NCBI GenBank assembly: GCA_028281575.1
Contig: JANQJP010000013.1
Span: forward strand, 62,001-126,000
From: Cellvibrionaceae bacterium
Lineage (GTDB): Bacteria > Pseudomonadota > Gammaproteobacteria > Pseudomonadales > Cellvibrionaceae
DNA length: 64,000 nucleotides
Direction of reading: 5' to 3'
Part shown: one piece after another, positions 58,543 through 64,000 of the stretch
How positions within the stretch are numbered: the stretch's first letter is position 1
Layout of the letters: every line of letters begins with the position of its first letter
Notes under the pieces: generated by a model
Database searches by the model: none
What the model was told of the DNA's origin: nothing
Seen by the model: only the letters and a program-made list of their open reading frames with translations
Position numbers and translations under genes: made by a program

Positions 58543-58950
58543 ACTTTGTGGGTTATCTCTTCTCTTTACTCTCAGGTAGAATGCCCAGCATTTTGCGGTA
58601 ATGCAGCGCTCTATGATAAGAAGCGTTCGGCTTTATGTGCTAGGTGTGCGCCAAACGCGACCTACGCTCAGCCAGAATTTTTGTGTACACGGGTGTGTAC
58701 ACGATTGGGAAATTAAGTATGTCAGAACAAAATTTTGTCAATGAAATCAATAAAACAAGGACGTTTGCTATCATCTTGCACCCCAAGCAGAACATATAAG
58801 ACACCCCAAACACAAACTTTAATAAAATCAAAAAGTTATAACGTGTCTGAGGTTGTCGTATTGACTCCCCGAGCCTTACTTTGACATGCTTAGTCGCACC
58901 AGATAGGTGTTTAAATTGCCCCTCAAAAAAATTTAAACCCATTCTTTGTT
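58543..58950. other. Gene-free gap between doc and the AbiEi antitoxin
   Basis: About 400 bp. TGTGTACAC occurs twice (58682-58690, 58694-58702), each containing the palindrome GTGTACAC, a possible regulator site. A leftward frame of ~120 codons crosses the gap but has no family likeness and overlaps the AbiEi start. The region may carry debris of lost genes. Confidence 0.35.
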
Positions 58951-59931
58951 GTGCTTGATTACACAGGCAAAGTCTATTCGCTATCTCGGCATGGTGGCGT
59001 TTCAACAAAAGACCTTAAAAACCGTTTGGGAAGCCCCGAGCAATTACCGACAGTTGATGCGACGAAAGGCAAAATACGCAAATTTTATACTGCTGATATT
59101 CTGGATCGTATCAACGCCCTTAAACGAAAACATGAGCAAGCACTATTGCCTCTAAAAGATAAAAAGGCGTTGCTTGTGCATATTCAAAAAGCCGAACGGC
59201 GCGAGCTGTCAGATCAACAACGCGTATCGCGTGATTTGCAGCAGTATTACTGCAAGAGTGGTTGGCTTGAATCTGTAGGGCGGGGGGCATACAAAAGGCC
59301 GAATGATGAAGTCGGTTGGCAGGATGCATTACAGGCACTGGTTGAGCAGGCTGGTCTCAATATACATGTAGGGGGCATGACGGCGCTTTCCCAGCAGGGC
59401 GCGGGGCATTATGTGCGATTGTGGAAAGAAAGGGTTTACCTCTTTTCCCCGCTAGGGGTTTCCTTGCCAGCATGGTTTAAAAAGTATGATTGGGGTGTAC
59501 CGATAGCGCACGTCAAAACGGGCTTTTTGCCCAACAATGCGGATTTAGGGGTGGCCTATAGCATGAAGCTGGATTCTACAAAAGGAATGACCGCGAGAGT
59601 ATTTTCAGATACGGCGCGAGCTATGATGGAATGTCTATATCTAGCACCCAAAAAACAGGATTTGGTAGAGTGCTATCAGGTGATGGAAGGGCTGGTAAAT
59701 CTGCGTCCTAAAGTTGTTCAAGGCTTATTGGAAGCTTGCACTTCCATCAAGGTGAAAAGGCTATTTCTCTATATGGCGGAAAAGGCTGACCACCAGTGGC
59801 TACAGTATATTGATTTATCCAAAGTAACCCTTGGCAAAGGAGATCGCTCTATTGTTGGAAAGGGTGTTAAACAGGGGGTCTATGTCTCTAAATACAACAT
59901 CATCGTACCCAAAGCATTGGAGGCTGTATGA
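58951..59931 (+). CDS. AbiEi-type antitoxin with unusual N-terminal extension
   Basis: A 326-residue protein. From about residue 85 onward it is a standard AbiEi antitoxin of type IV toxin-antitoxin systems: winged-helix start with DLQQYYCKSGWLESVGRGAYKR in pieces, IHVGGMTALSQQGAGHYVRL, PAWFKKYDWG, ARAMMECLYLAPKKQDLVECYQ and SIKVKRLFLYMAEKA. The first ~80 residues (GTG start, DYTGKVYSLSRHGGVSTKDL, FYTADILDRINALKR) are not part of the usual protein and I do not recognise them. They may be a fused fragment, or the true start may be a TTG near residue 67. It overlaps the toxin ATG. Confidence 0.82.
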   Translation: MLDYTGKVYSLSRHGGVSTKDLKNRLGSPEQLPTVDATKGKIRKFYTADILDRINALKRKHEQALLPLKDKKALLVHIQKAERRELSDQQRVSRDLQQYYCKSGWLESVGRGAYKRPNDEVGWQDALQALVEQAGLNIHVGGMTALSQQGAGHYVRLWKERVYLFSPLGVSLPAWFKKYDWGVPIAHVKTGFLPNNADLGVAYSMKLDSTKGMTARVFSDTARAMMECLYLAPKKQDLVECYQVMEGLVNLRPKVVQGLLEACTSIKVKRLFLYMAEKADHQWLQYIDLSKVTLGKGDRSIVGKGVKQGVYVSKYNIIVPKALEAV

Positions 59932-60129
59932 TAAGTCCTGCATATCGTGCACAGGTTGAATTACTGCTTCGTGTTTTGCCCTATGTGGCAAAAGAAGACG
60001 TATTCGCGCTCAATGGTGGCACGGCAATTAACTTGTTTGTTCGCGAGCTTCCCCGATTTTCAAAAGAATTCAGAGAAACATGCACAGCAACTCGATAGGT
60101 TGAAAAAGTGCCTTGGTGTGAGTGAGTAG
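59928..60129 (+). pseudogene. AbiEii-type nucleotidyltransferase toxin, collapsed by internal deletion
   Basis: The start (ATG overlapping the antitoxin stop as ATGA) encodes SPAYRAQVELLLRVLPYVAK and then EDVFALNGGTAINLFVREL, the normal AbiEii N-terminus with its GG nucleotidyltransferase motif. After about residue 45 the sequence jumps: a +1-shifted frame reads SEKHAQQLDRLKKCLG to a stop at 60129, which looks like the family C-terminus. The original frame stops at 60098. Most of the ~300-residue toxin, including the catalytic acidic residues, is therefore missing. Confidence 0.75.
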
Positions 60130-60249: not shown

Positions 60250-63200
60250 ATGGAAGTTCCTATCGAATCTAAACCCGCTGTGCAGTTAAACGTTGATCAC
60301 ACATCAACTTTCTCCCTGGCTGCACAGCAAAATGCTTACCCTCTATTTCGTACAATGAGCTTGTACTACCCAGCTTTAAGCAGCGATATATTAAATACCC
60401 AACCTCCCCTCAAAAACCTTATTGTTAAACTCTCTTCGGAACCAGAAATATTTGCTTCCGAAGAATGGCTTGTAGATGAAATTCGACCTGGGCAGGGAAT
60501 ATCATTACAAAAGCGCCCGCTAAATGTCCCCCATGATTTCTTATTTAATCTAACTGAAGAACTAAAAGTTTCTATAAGACTTTCCGTTGCTACGGCTGAT
60601 AAACCGGAAGTAAATATCGTTACTGAAGATTTTTTAATAGATGTACTTCCTGCTAATTTCTGGGGTGGAGAAAGTCGACAACCCGACCTACTAGCAGCCT
60701 TTGTGAAGCCAAATGGGCTATATATTGAGTCCTTAGTGAGGCAAGTAGCAGAAGCTCTGGAAAAGAGTGGCCAAGGAAGAAGTGTGGACGGTTATCAATC
60801 AAATACGAGAGAAAAACCGTATTTGATGACAGCTGCGCTTTGGAATGTGATATTTGCTCAGCGCATTGCCTATGTAACACCTCCCCAAAGTTTTGCTCGG
60901 CAAGGCCAACGTATACGTTTAGCATCGGATATTAGCTCTTCAAGAATAGCTGCCTGCCTTGATACATCTCTTTTATTTGCTAGCTGCCTTGAAATGATGG
61001 GGTTAAACCCGGTGGTTGCTCTTAGCAAAGAGCATGCATTTGTTGGTGTCTGGCTGATCAATGAAAATTTTCCGATATTAACTAACGACGACCCTATGGA
61101 TCTTCGTAAGCGTGTTGATGCACGTGATCTTGTGTTATTTGAGAGCACACTGGTTACGAATGACACGCCGGTTACTTTTGAACAATCTAAAGCAGTTGCA
61201 AGAGATTTAATTAGTGAAGACAAAGAAAATGACTTTGTCTATTTAATAGATATTAAACAGGCACGATCTAGAAAAATAAAACCCATTTCGACAATTGAAG
61301 AAAAACCTGACGAAAAAACCTCTGAATCAGAAACCGAATTAGGCTTGCCCGTAATTCCGCCTCTGCCACCTGTAAGAGCAGATGAGCAAGTTATTGATGA
61401 AACGCCGGAAACTCGAATTGATGCCTGGCAGAGAAAACTCTTAGATCTTACTAAACGTAATGCATTGTTATCACTAAAAGACCGGGCAGTAGCTATAAAA
61501 TTGTATTGCCCCGACATTGGCGCCATGGAAGACAATTTAGCTGATGGTGTTTCATTTAGATTTTTATCTTCAGAAGAAAGCCCTCTAAATGATAAGGAAC
61601 GTAGTGAAGAAACCTTCAGGTTACAAGTAGGCTCTGATCTTCATAGAGACTACGCCCTAGAGCAGCTAAACAAGAATGTTCTTCTTGCCAACATGCCGAG
61701 GAAAAAGCTTGAACAGAACTCTGTAAATCTACTGAGGAAAGCAAAAAATGATTTGGAGGAAGGTGGGTCAAACACCCTGTATTTGGCGCTAGGGATGCTT
61801 CGTTGGAAAGAAAACCCTGAAGATGATCGCTCATATCGCGCCCCCTTGATCCTTATACCTGCGGAATTAACGAGAAGCAGTGCAAGAGCACCGATTAAAG
61901 TTCGCCAGTTATCCGATGAAAGCCCTATTTTTAATATGACGCTCATTGAATTCCTTTATACAGAGCACAGCATAGACTTGAATCAATTCAGGGAAGCATT
62001 GCCTGAAGACGAATCTGGCGTTGATGTGGGCCTCGTTTGGAATACCGTGAGAGCAGCCATAGCAGAACAACCAGGATTTGAGGTGGTAGAAGAGTTAGTT
62101 CTCGCATCTTTCTCCTTTGCAAAATACCTAATGTGGAAGGACTTAAAAGATAGAATCGATGACTTAAAAGATAATCCTTTTGTTAAACACCTGGTTGATC
62201 ATCCACAAGACGCTTACATTCAAGATGCCAGTTTCGTTCTGCGTGACGAAGTTGATGAAAAGGTCGACCCAGAAAAAGTATTTACGCCGCTCAATTGCGA
62301 CAGTTCCCAGCTAGTAGCTGTTGAAGCTTCTGGCAGACCACAAGACTTTGTCTTGGAGGGGCCACCCGGAACAGGCAAATCAGAGACAATTGCCAATATC
62401 ATTTGTCACAACTTGGCCCTAGGTAGAAAAGTGTTGTTTGTCGCAGAGAAAATGGCTGCTCTAAATGTCGTTTATAGACGCATGGAAAAAGTAGGGTTAG
62501 ATCACTTGTGCTTAGAGTTACACAGCAATAAAGCAAATAAGAAAGCGGTTCTTGAGCAACTTAGAGCTGCTACAGATAAACGAGAAGGTGCTCAAAGTAA
62601 AAACTGGGTTGATTCAGTCAAAGTTCTAAAAGCAAAACGGGATAAGCTGAACAGTTTTGTCCAAGCCCTACATAATAAGTCTATATACGAAATTTCCGCG
62701 CGCGATGCTATCGCAAGAGATGTCCTATATCGGGGTAAACACACCCTCGACATTACTTGGCCATTCGGGTTTGATAGCGCTCCAGTTAACAATTCAGAGA
62801 GACTGGGTGAAATGCTTGAAGCCGTTAAGCAAGCAGCCCTTGCATACAGCGACATTTCACGTCTTGACCCAACACAGTTTCGTATCCTAAGAGCGAAAAA
62901 CTGGTCATATGCCTGGCAAAAACAAGTAACAGAGTGTTTGGCACGATATAAATCCGCGATCAATGAGCTTTATCCCTCAGCTGCAATACTTGTATCAAGT
63001 TTTAACCTCAAATTGCAGGAGAATACCACCAATAATCTGAGTCGGGTAAATCAATTAGCAAGCCTAATCGAATTGGCCGAATCTAACTCCATGGGTTACA
63101 TAGTTAAAAGGGGAGTTAAAAGCTTATTAGAGGATTTAAATCAGTTAAGTCAAACAAAGCAAGAATTTGACCAGTGCCTCTGTACGATCGGTCATCAGGT

Positions 63201-64000
63201 TAACGCAGATGTTCTCGCCAAAAGCCCCGTATCCGAGTGGGTCGGTATTTATAAAGATGCTAAAGACAGTTGGTTTAAACGTTTCTTCGCCAAACTCAAG
63301 ATTAATGGTGCAGCTAAAAAGTTAGGATATGAAAAGTTTAAAGACTTAGAAATTCTGCTTGATCTAGAAAAAGGGGCCAAGCTGCAAGAAATTATTATTT
63401 CCATCAAAGACCCATTTGAAGAAGATAAGATATGGCAGGGTTGGAATACTAAGCCTGAAAGCTTAAGCCAAGCTGCCTCTACAGGTAAATCAGCTCACAA
63501 AGCACTAACTGAAGCAATAGGCTTAACGGACGACCCCGCTGTTTTACTTACAGCTATAAAATCAAAGCTAATTGATGGCCGAGATTTCCTTGAAAATTCA
63601 AAAATTGTAAACCAGAAGAACGAGTTCAAAAAACTTTGGGATGTTTATTTAGCTGTAACTGAAGAGGCCCAAAAGTTAGAGCTAGATTTTGATGAAAATG
63701 CGTCATTAGAGAATATTAATCCAGTAATTGATCAATTGATTTCAAACGCAGCTAAATTCAAACCATGGAGTGAGTGGTTATCTGCTAAGGAAGTTTTAAA
63801 TGGCTATCAGCTACAAGCTCTAACTAACAGCTTAGAAGCAAGAACAATTTTACCTGATGATGCTGAAGGCCAAGTTCTAACAGCATTTTGCCGATGGATC
63901 GCGCCGCAATTGATAGATGAGAGTTATGAATTGCGACAATTCAAGGCATCTACTCATGAGCAACTGATTGATGAGTTTAGAAAGCTGGATGCAGAAGTTT
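60250..64000 (+). CDS. Transglutaminase-DUF4011-SF1 helicase protein (3' partial), putative defence gene
   Basis: An uninterrupted frame from ATG 60250 runs off the window, 1250 codons so far. Residues ~215-275 resemble a transglutaminase-like domain with Cys236 (AACLDTSLLFASCLE) and His262 (KEHAFVGVW). DUF4011 starts near 389 with RIDAWQRKLLDLTKRNALL. A superfamily 1 helicase follows, with Walker A GPPGTGKSET at 704-713 and FVAEKMAALNVVYRRM just after. The usual continuation is helicase motifs II-VI and often DUF3320 or a Vsr-like nuclease, beyond the edge. Proteins of this architecture (for example Hhe) have been linked to anti-phage defence. The gene is AT-rich, suggesting transfer. Confidence 0.82.
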   Translation, partial: MEVPIESKPAVQLNVDHTSTFSLAAQQNAYPLFRTMSLYYPALSSDILNTQPPLKNLIVKLSSEPEIFASEEWLVDEIRPGQGISLQKRPLNVPHDFLFNLTEELKVSIRLSVATADKPEVNIVTEDFLIDVLPANFWGGESRQPDLLAAFVKPNGLYIESLVRQVAEALEKSGQGRSVDGYQSNTREKPYLMTAALWNVIFAQRIAYVTPPQSFARQGQRIRLASDISSSRIAACLDTSLLFASCLEMMGLNPVVALSKEHAFVGVWLINENFPILTNDDPMDLRKRVDARDLVLFESTLVTNDTPVTFEQSKAVARDLISEDKENDFVYLIDIKQARSRKIKPISTIEEKPDEKTSESETELGLPVIPPLPPVRADEQVIDETPETRIDAWQRKLLDLTKRNALLSLKDRAVAIKLYCPDIGAMEDNLADGVSFRFLSSEESPLNDKERSEETFRLQVGSDLHRDYALEQLNKNVLLANMPRKKLEQNSVNLLRKAKNDLEEGGSNTLYLALGMLRWKENPEDDRSYRAPLILIPAELTRSSARAPIKVRQLSDESPIFNMTLIEFLYTEHSIDLNQFREALPEDESGVDVGLVWNTVRAAIAEQPGFEVVEELVLASFSFAKYLMWKDLKDRIDDLKDNPFVKHLVDHPQDAYIQDASFVLRDEVDEKVDPEKVFTPLNCDSSQLVAVEASGRPQDFVLEGPPGTGKSETIANIICHNLALGRKVLFVAEKMAALNVVYRRMEKVGLDHLCLELHSNKANKKAVLEQLRAATDKREGAQSKNWVDSVKVLKAKRDKLNSFVQALHNKSIYEISARDAIARDVLYRGKHTLDITWPFGFDSAPVNNSERLGEMLEAVKQAALAYSDISRLDPTQFRILRAKNWSYAWQKQVTECLARYKSAINELYPSAAILVSSFNLKLQENTTNNLSRVNQLASLIELAESNSMGYIVKRGVKSLLEDLNQLSQTKQEFDQCLCTIGHQVNADVLAKSPVSEWVGIYKDAKDSWFKRFFAKLKINGAAKKLGYEKFKDLEILLDLEKGAKLQEIIISIKDPFEEDKIWQGWNTKPESLSQAASTGKSAHKALTEAIGLTDDPAVLLTAIKSKLIDGRDFLENSKIVNQKNEFKKLWDVYLAVTEEAQKLELDFDENASLENINPVIDQLISNAAKFKPWSEWLSAKEVLNGYQLQALTNSLEARTILPDDAEGQVLTAFCRWIAPQLIDESYELRQFKASTHEQLIDEFRKLDAEV

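Follow-up and report, generated by a model that had tools for sequence, protein, structure and literature searches.

Giant proteins in which a HEPN domain, a transglutaminase-like peptidase, a superfamily 1 (SF1) helicase, a Vsr nuclease and a winged helix-turn-helix (wHTH) domain are joined, with no accompanying modification genes, are known from a survey of HEPN proteins published in 2013. That survey put forward DNA recognition via the wHTH, an added line of defense through cleavage of proteins by the transglutaminase and, for the HEPN-bearing giants, suicidal action (PMC3710099). Other points of comparison are Hhe (NF042953, DUF4011 domain-containing anti-phage protein), the PADLOC candidate PDC-S37, the helicase-nuclease degradation system Hna, which acts by abortive infection (PMC13381803), and Hachiman/AVAST, in which proteolytic gating of a nuclease in helicase-containing defense is known (PMC12799240). 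Here we analyze a giant gene of the ProA family that starts close to the end of a 64,000-nucleotide stretch ("the window") of a Cellvibrionaceae genome (GCA_028281575.1, contig JANQJP010000013.1, positions 62,001 to 126,000).

We propose, with moderate confidence, that this gene encodes a single-gene anti-phage helicase-nuclease carried as mobile-element cargo, in which a transglutaminase-fold cysteine hydrolase acts as a motor-gated peptidase. By its profile match the protein is a member of ProA, an already named anti-phage kind, and its domain combination is not new. It scores 1833.7 bits against a cut-off of 1500 for the equivalog model NF058533 of NCBIfam, "anti-phage protein ProA", which aligns in one stretch (profile 2-1901 of 1903) to residues 23-1905. 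It is a somewhat divergent ProA; the best-scoring genome in the host's taxonomic family reaches 2198 bits. ProA is widespread and named as anti-phage, and the interest of this locus lies in what the transglutaminase domain adds to the helicase-nuclease body.

An earlier sequence-only reading of the window had reported a frame of at least 1250 codons. That frame, with an ATG start at 60250, is open up to the window end, and extending it across the genome contig (G000:C6:122250-128024, equal to L002:751-6525) leads to a stop codon and a protein of 1924 aa. Its start and frame are supported because the open reading frames (ORFs) of two close relatives, L038 and L039 (82-85% identity over the first 385 residues), begin at the identical Met. 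The gene and its features within the window are as follows, with window numbering continued past 64000 where needed.

60250..66024, + strand: ProA-family giant protein gene, one ORF; residues 1-1250 of 1924 are encoded by the window part, 60250..64000
60280..60654, + strand: predicted immunoglobulin (Ig)-like beta-sandwich, residues 11-135 (AlphaFold2 model and structure comparison)
60670..61284, + strand: predicted transglutaminase-fold core, residues 141-345, with Q220, C236, H262 and E298 (conserved residues, fold matches)
61285..61404, + strand: low-confidence, probably flexible linker, residues 346-385 (predicted local distance difference test, pLDDT, ~50 around 351-360)
61435..61956, + strand: DUF4011, residues 396-569 (PF13195, 137 bits, 5.7e-40)
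62359..62382, + strand: Walker A motif GPPGTGKS, residues 704-711 (motif; residue conservation)

The extended protein shows the following domain order: Ig-like sandwich, transglutaminase-fold core, linker, DUF4011, split SF1 helicase, Vsr-like nuclease and a C-terminal winged-helix-like region. DUF4011 and an SF1 P-loop with Lys710, both reported from the window alone, were found again, and helicase motifs II-VI, sought past 64000, are all present (DEAS 1336, GDPKQMPPT 1360, HYRS 1405, VQGDERD 1529 and NVAITRA 1570). In the whole protein the best stretch of the Pfam AAA_11 match lies at 1326-1369, while the window part alone matches at 683-777; AAA_12 matches residues 1389-1584. Among solved helicases, UPF1, SEN1 and IGHMBP2 are nearest in sequence. 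Also beyond the window end is a Vsr-type nuclease of the MTES_1575 kind (PF18741, 115.5 bits, residues 1635-1732), as the sequence-only reading had thought worth looking for. A model of residues 1605-1924 shows a Vsr-like nuclease resembling the catalytic domain of I-Bth0305I (template modelling score 0.78 on target), followed by a C-terminus that resembles winged-helix folds.

Both of these active sites are intact. Across 73 aligned full-length ProA homologues, on which all conservation counts are based, the helicase motif residues are nearly all invariant, and the nuclease residues E1636, D1662, E1679 and D1681 are kept in every protein. Ten of the 73 are shorter than 1830 aa, several of them without a match to the C-terminal region.

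The N-terminal part was examined through an AlphaFold2 model of residues 1-400 (mean pLDDT 88, predicted template modelling score 0.85) with Foldseek and VIA-align comparisons. Sandwich residues 11-135 match beta-sandwich domains with a best Z of 9.6, and the sandwiches of Factor XIII and protein 4.2 with Z of 8.5-9.0. The following core, modelled with pLDDT >90 across most of 190-345, is an alpha/beta unit in which Cys236 caps a helix, His262 stands at a strand start and Glu298 follows the next strand. It matches TglA of S. pyogenes (Z 8.7), yeast PNGase (Z 8.6), transglutaminase 4xz7 (Z 8.4) and BDI_1141 (Z 8.3). These matches to transglutaminase superfamily members span 134-160 residues and are moderate, not decisive alone. 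Cys236, Gln220 and Asp238 are kept in 73/73 homologues, and His262 and Glu298 in 72/73 each. Only the agreement of fold, residue order and invariant triad makes the case, in the model, that residues 141-345 belong to the transglutaminase fold, and the intact-looking Cys/His domain noticed earlier from sequence is upheld to that extent. The linker that follows is poorly conserved except for P370 (73/73), L372 (72/73) and P373 (71/73); as a speculation, this near-invariant P370-x-L372-P373 might serve for docking or processing.

The third position of the triad is occupied by Glu298, where classical transglutaminases carry Asp; order and fold in the model suggest that the two positions are equivalent. 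A true transglutaminase or deamidase, cross-linking or modifying a protein instead of cutting it, would fit the presence of human transglutaminase 2 and Factor XIII among the best Foldseek rows for the N-terminal model and the similar sandwich-plus-core order, but the core matches hydrolases or putative proteases (yeast PNGase, BDI_1141 and 3isr) just as well, and we regard this activity as improbable. Bacterial members of the transglutaminase superfamily are mostly thought to be peptidases.

The transglutaminase-fold cysteine hydrolase is most likely the regulatory or effector part of a single-gene helicase-nuclease defense. In the mechanism we envisage, a Upf1/IGHMBP2-like SF1 motor, aided by DUF4011 and the C-terminal winged-helix-like region, would engage phage DNA or replication intermediates, and its ATP-driven translocation would license the Vsr-like EDxHD-type nuclease to degrade the engaged DNA. 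The N-terminal cysteine hydrolase (Cys236-His262-Glu298) would be a peptidase gated by the motor and would cut a protein target or its own linker. We infer phage DNA as the substrate, the nuclease activity, and the peptidase activity with its target: the DNA-degradation step from the family name, the intact motifs and the analogy with Hna, and the peptidase step from triad conservation and the analogy with proteolytic gating in Hachiman/AVAST. Hachiman and the AVAST nuclease-protease pairs resemble ProA in joining a protease and a nuclease to a defense NTPase or helicase, but the folds are unrelated and the likeness is an analogy only (PMC12799240). A more specific version, a three-enzyme machine in one polypeptide in which helicase translocation switches on the Cys-His-Glu peptidase to cut either its own conserved P-x-L-P linker or a specific protein of phage or host, coupling DNA sensing to proteolysis, is put forward tentatively, as something we would not yet bet on. 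If the domain does cleave protein on DNA sensing, a transglutaminase-fold peptidase would join the short list of proteases in bacterial immunity.

A precedent for this arrangement is the HEPN giants (MTES_1575), which like ProA have a transglutaminase-like peptidase, an SF1 helicase, an MTES_1575-type nuclease and a wHTH, with no modification subunit; they carry an N-terminal HEPN RNase, whereas the ProA N-terminus is modelled as a beta-sandwich (PMC3710099). The sequence-only reading had called the role of the transglutaminase part unexplained. As regards experiment this stands, and no paper testing the protease-like domain of ProA was found in the literature searched, but the fusion and a protein-cleavage role had already been proposed in 2013 (PMC3710099). 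Activated ProA might be an abortive-infection switch that kills the cell by degrading host DNA or cutting a host protein and does not restrict phage DNA directly, as the abortive action of Hna (PMC13381803) and the suicide proposed for HEPN giants (PMC3710099) would suggest; Pfam, however, reported no HEPN match in the window ProA, and we consider such a switch a real but doubtful possibility.

Several observations weigh against the proposed role of the transglutaminase domain, and the peptidase step is the weaker part of the model, because the domain is absent from some relatives and a triad residue is missing from two proteins that look intact. Hhe, like ProA, has DUF4011, a split SF1 helicase and a nuclease, and the window protein matches the Hhe model with 790.5 bits over part of the model, under the cut-off of 2000. 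Hhe proteins begin directly at DUF4011, whereas the window ProA has 395 residues before it, and the transglutaminase profile found no match in three true Hhe proteins or in relatives L025-L027. PDC-S37 gives 1131 bits over ProA residues 387-1920 (profile 7-1530 of 1550); its model, too, starts at DUF4011 and leaves the transglutaminase part outside. Relatives of ~1550 aa lacking the domain exist, one of them with DUF3320. Single-sequence search gave no significant Pfam transglutaminase match for the window protein, a weak match to DUF553 (transglutaminase-like; best E 0.025) was reached by 3/32 homologues, and comparing the transglutaminase profile with PDB chain sequences yielded nothing useful. 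Among relatives, L039 (82-89% identical to the window protein) carries His262Gln with everything else intact, and the otherwise intact L067 has a deletion spanning Glu298; judged from these two sequences, the domain may be dispensable. Searches of the literature turned up no source publication for the name ProA.

The same facts favor a binding or sensing module in place of an enzyme, with the helicase and nuclease alone providing defense, as in Hhe: the same DUF4011-helicase-nuclease body occurs without this domain in Hhe and in PDC-S37-like relatives, two natural variants lack one triad residue, and Glu298 replaces the classical Asp. Against it, the retention of the triad together with Gln220 and Asp238, despite domain identity down to ~32%, is a selected active-site pattern, and we judge a purely binding or sensing role rather unlikely. 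The contribution of the domain is cleanly testable because its relatives share the body without it and natural triad-lesion variants exist. The His262Gln protein of L039 (L039:10001-15787; uncultured gammaproteobacterium) is such a natural test case.

Two side observations concern the relatives without a transglutaminase domain and the domain itself. SIR2-like and HerA genes, which are known as a pair from other defense loci, come after the DUF4011-helicase-nuclease with DUF3320 at L025:5900-13858. A separate transglutaminase gene beside such relatives was sought, but the flanking genes tested were YagK/YfjJ-type, SIR2, HerA, HDOD and others, none transglutaminase-like. A 461-aa transglutaminase ORF in L019, considered as a stand-alone gene, ends inside DUF4011 and looks like a truncated ProA.

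A scan with two short patterns found 340 ProA-encoding stretches among 84,980 species genomes, spread over Proteobacteria and other groups, and ProA also occurs on three viral contigs. Within the host's family the gene is patchy, over the cut-off in 12 of 144 genomes and in none of three congeners. Clustering of neighbors at 84 ProA loci, in search of an obligate partner gene, gave no cluster in more than six loci; since no neighboring gene is conserved, ProA is probably a single-gene system. Genes near ProA loci include type I restriction-modification (RM) subunits and Mrr-like restriction enzymes, in a neighbor tally made without a matched control.

This distribution bears on whether the protein could be a housekeeping DNA repair helicase, a view for which the resemblance of its SF1 core to Upf1/IGHMBP2 speaks. 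Such a role was rejected for its patchy distribution: ProA is absent or under the cut-off in 132/144 family genomes, which is far from universal conservation. ProA moreover lies between integration-site copies here and is interrupted by inserted sequence in Saccharophagus (L034/L098), and we regard a housekeeping function as highly improbable. The defense role suggested earlier from sequence is instead supported by the equivalog match above the cut-off, the patchy spread, the mobile context and the downstream nuclease domain. The interrupted gene, in Saccharophagus sp. K07 (L034:7187-13609, equal to L098:9812-16234), is broken by ~1 kb, probably an insertion sequence, with an opposite-strand ORF of 314 aa.

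As for the mobile context, integrative elements stand in tandem within the 5' end of prfC, which encodes release factor 3 and is the gene into which SXT/R391 elements integrate (PMC3850215). Their array is marked by three prfC 5'-end copies, at window 58719-58783, at L002:7978-8090 (67477-67589 in continued numbering) and at L003:15081-15193; the 113-bp copy at 67477-67589 is 86% identical to the prfC start, and the prfC gene itself starts at 94525 in the same numbering. The N-terminus that the working prfC now has is not that of the ancestral left-junction remnant. The 58719 and 67477 copies are each followed by a stretch with the shared sequence AAGTTATAACGTGTCTGAGGTTGTCGTATTGAC, which two related element ends would be expected to show. 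In three congeners the same genes follow prfC and different DNA precedes it. Features of the array in the window upstream of ProA are listed below.

58719..58783, + strand: left junction and left array end, the ancestral prfC 5' end (MSEQNFVNEINKTRTFAI...), with 83% identity to the prfC start of congener G002
58951..59931, + strand: intact-looking AbiEi antitoxin gene, in the same element as ProA (PF11459 180 bits, PF17194 86 bits)
59928..60098, + strand: AbiEii toxin remnant of 56 codons, covering profile positions 2-35 of 238 only

ProA shares segment A (58.7-67.6 kb) with AbiEi, the AbiEii remnant and the mobile mystery pair of A (helix-turn-helix, HTH) and B (Fic); this segment has no integrase. 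In segment B (67.5-94.5 kb) are mobility genes (tyrosine integrase, resolvase, coupling protein, relaxase and MobC), together with a type I RM system, ArdA and a complete AbiEi/AbiEii pair (L003:13179-14994). Against the intact AbiEii of that pair (L003:14080-14994), the AbiEii remnant aligns at 70% identity for 40 aa, with no similarity beyond. No tRNA, as a sign of tRNA-linked integration, was found in the window or the following 39 kb. prfC was also considered as a general home of ProA, but no other ProA locus has prfC close by, so this site is specific to this genome.

The surroundings had been described from sequence as a toxin-antitoxin island with three adjoining loci. An island exists, more precisely a tandem prfC-site element, and HipBA and Phd-Doc look intact; both lie left of the boundary at ~58719-58783 and by this reading outside the array, while the adjacent AbiE pair is broken, its AbiEii being a 56-aa remnant.

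Two further observations concern the array's other cargo. Directly 3' of ProA are the genes of mobile mystery proteins A (HTH) and B (Fic domain), at L002:6865-7922. In segment B, HsdS and HsdM of the type I RM operon (L003:4460-12844), which also has HsdR, flank a PrrC-like AAA_13 gene, and the antirestriction gene ArdA comes after the operon.
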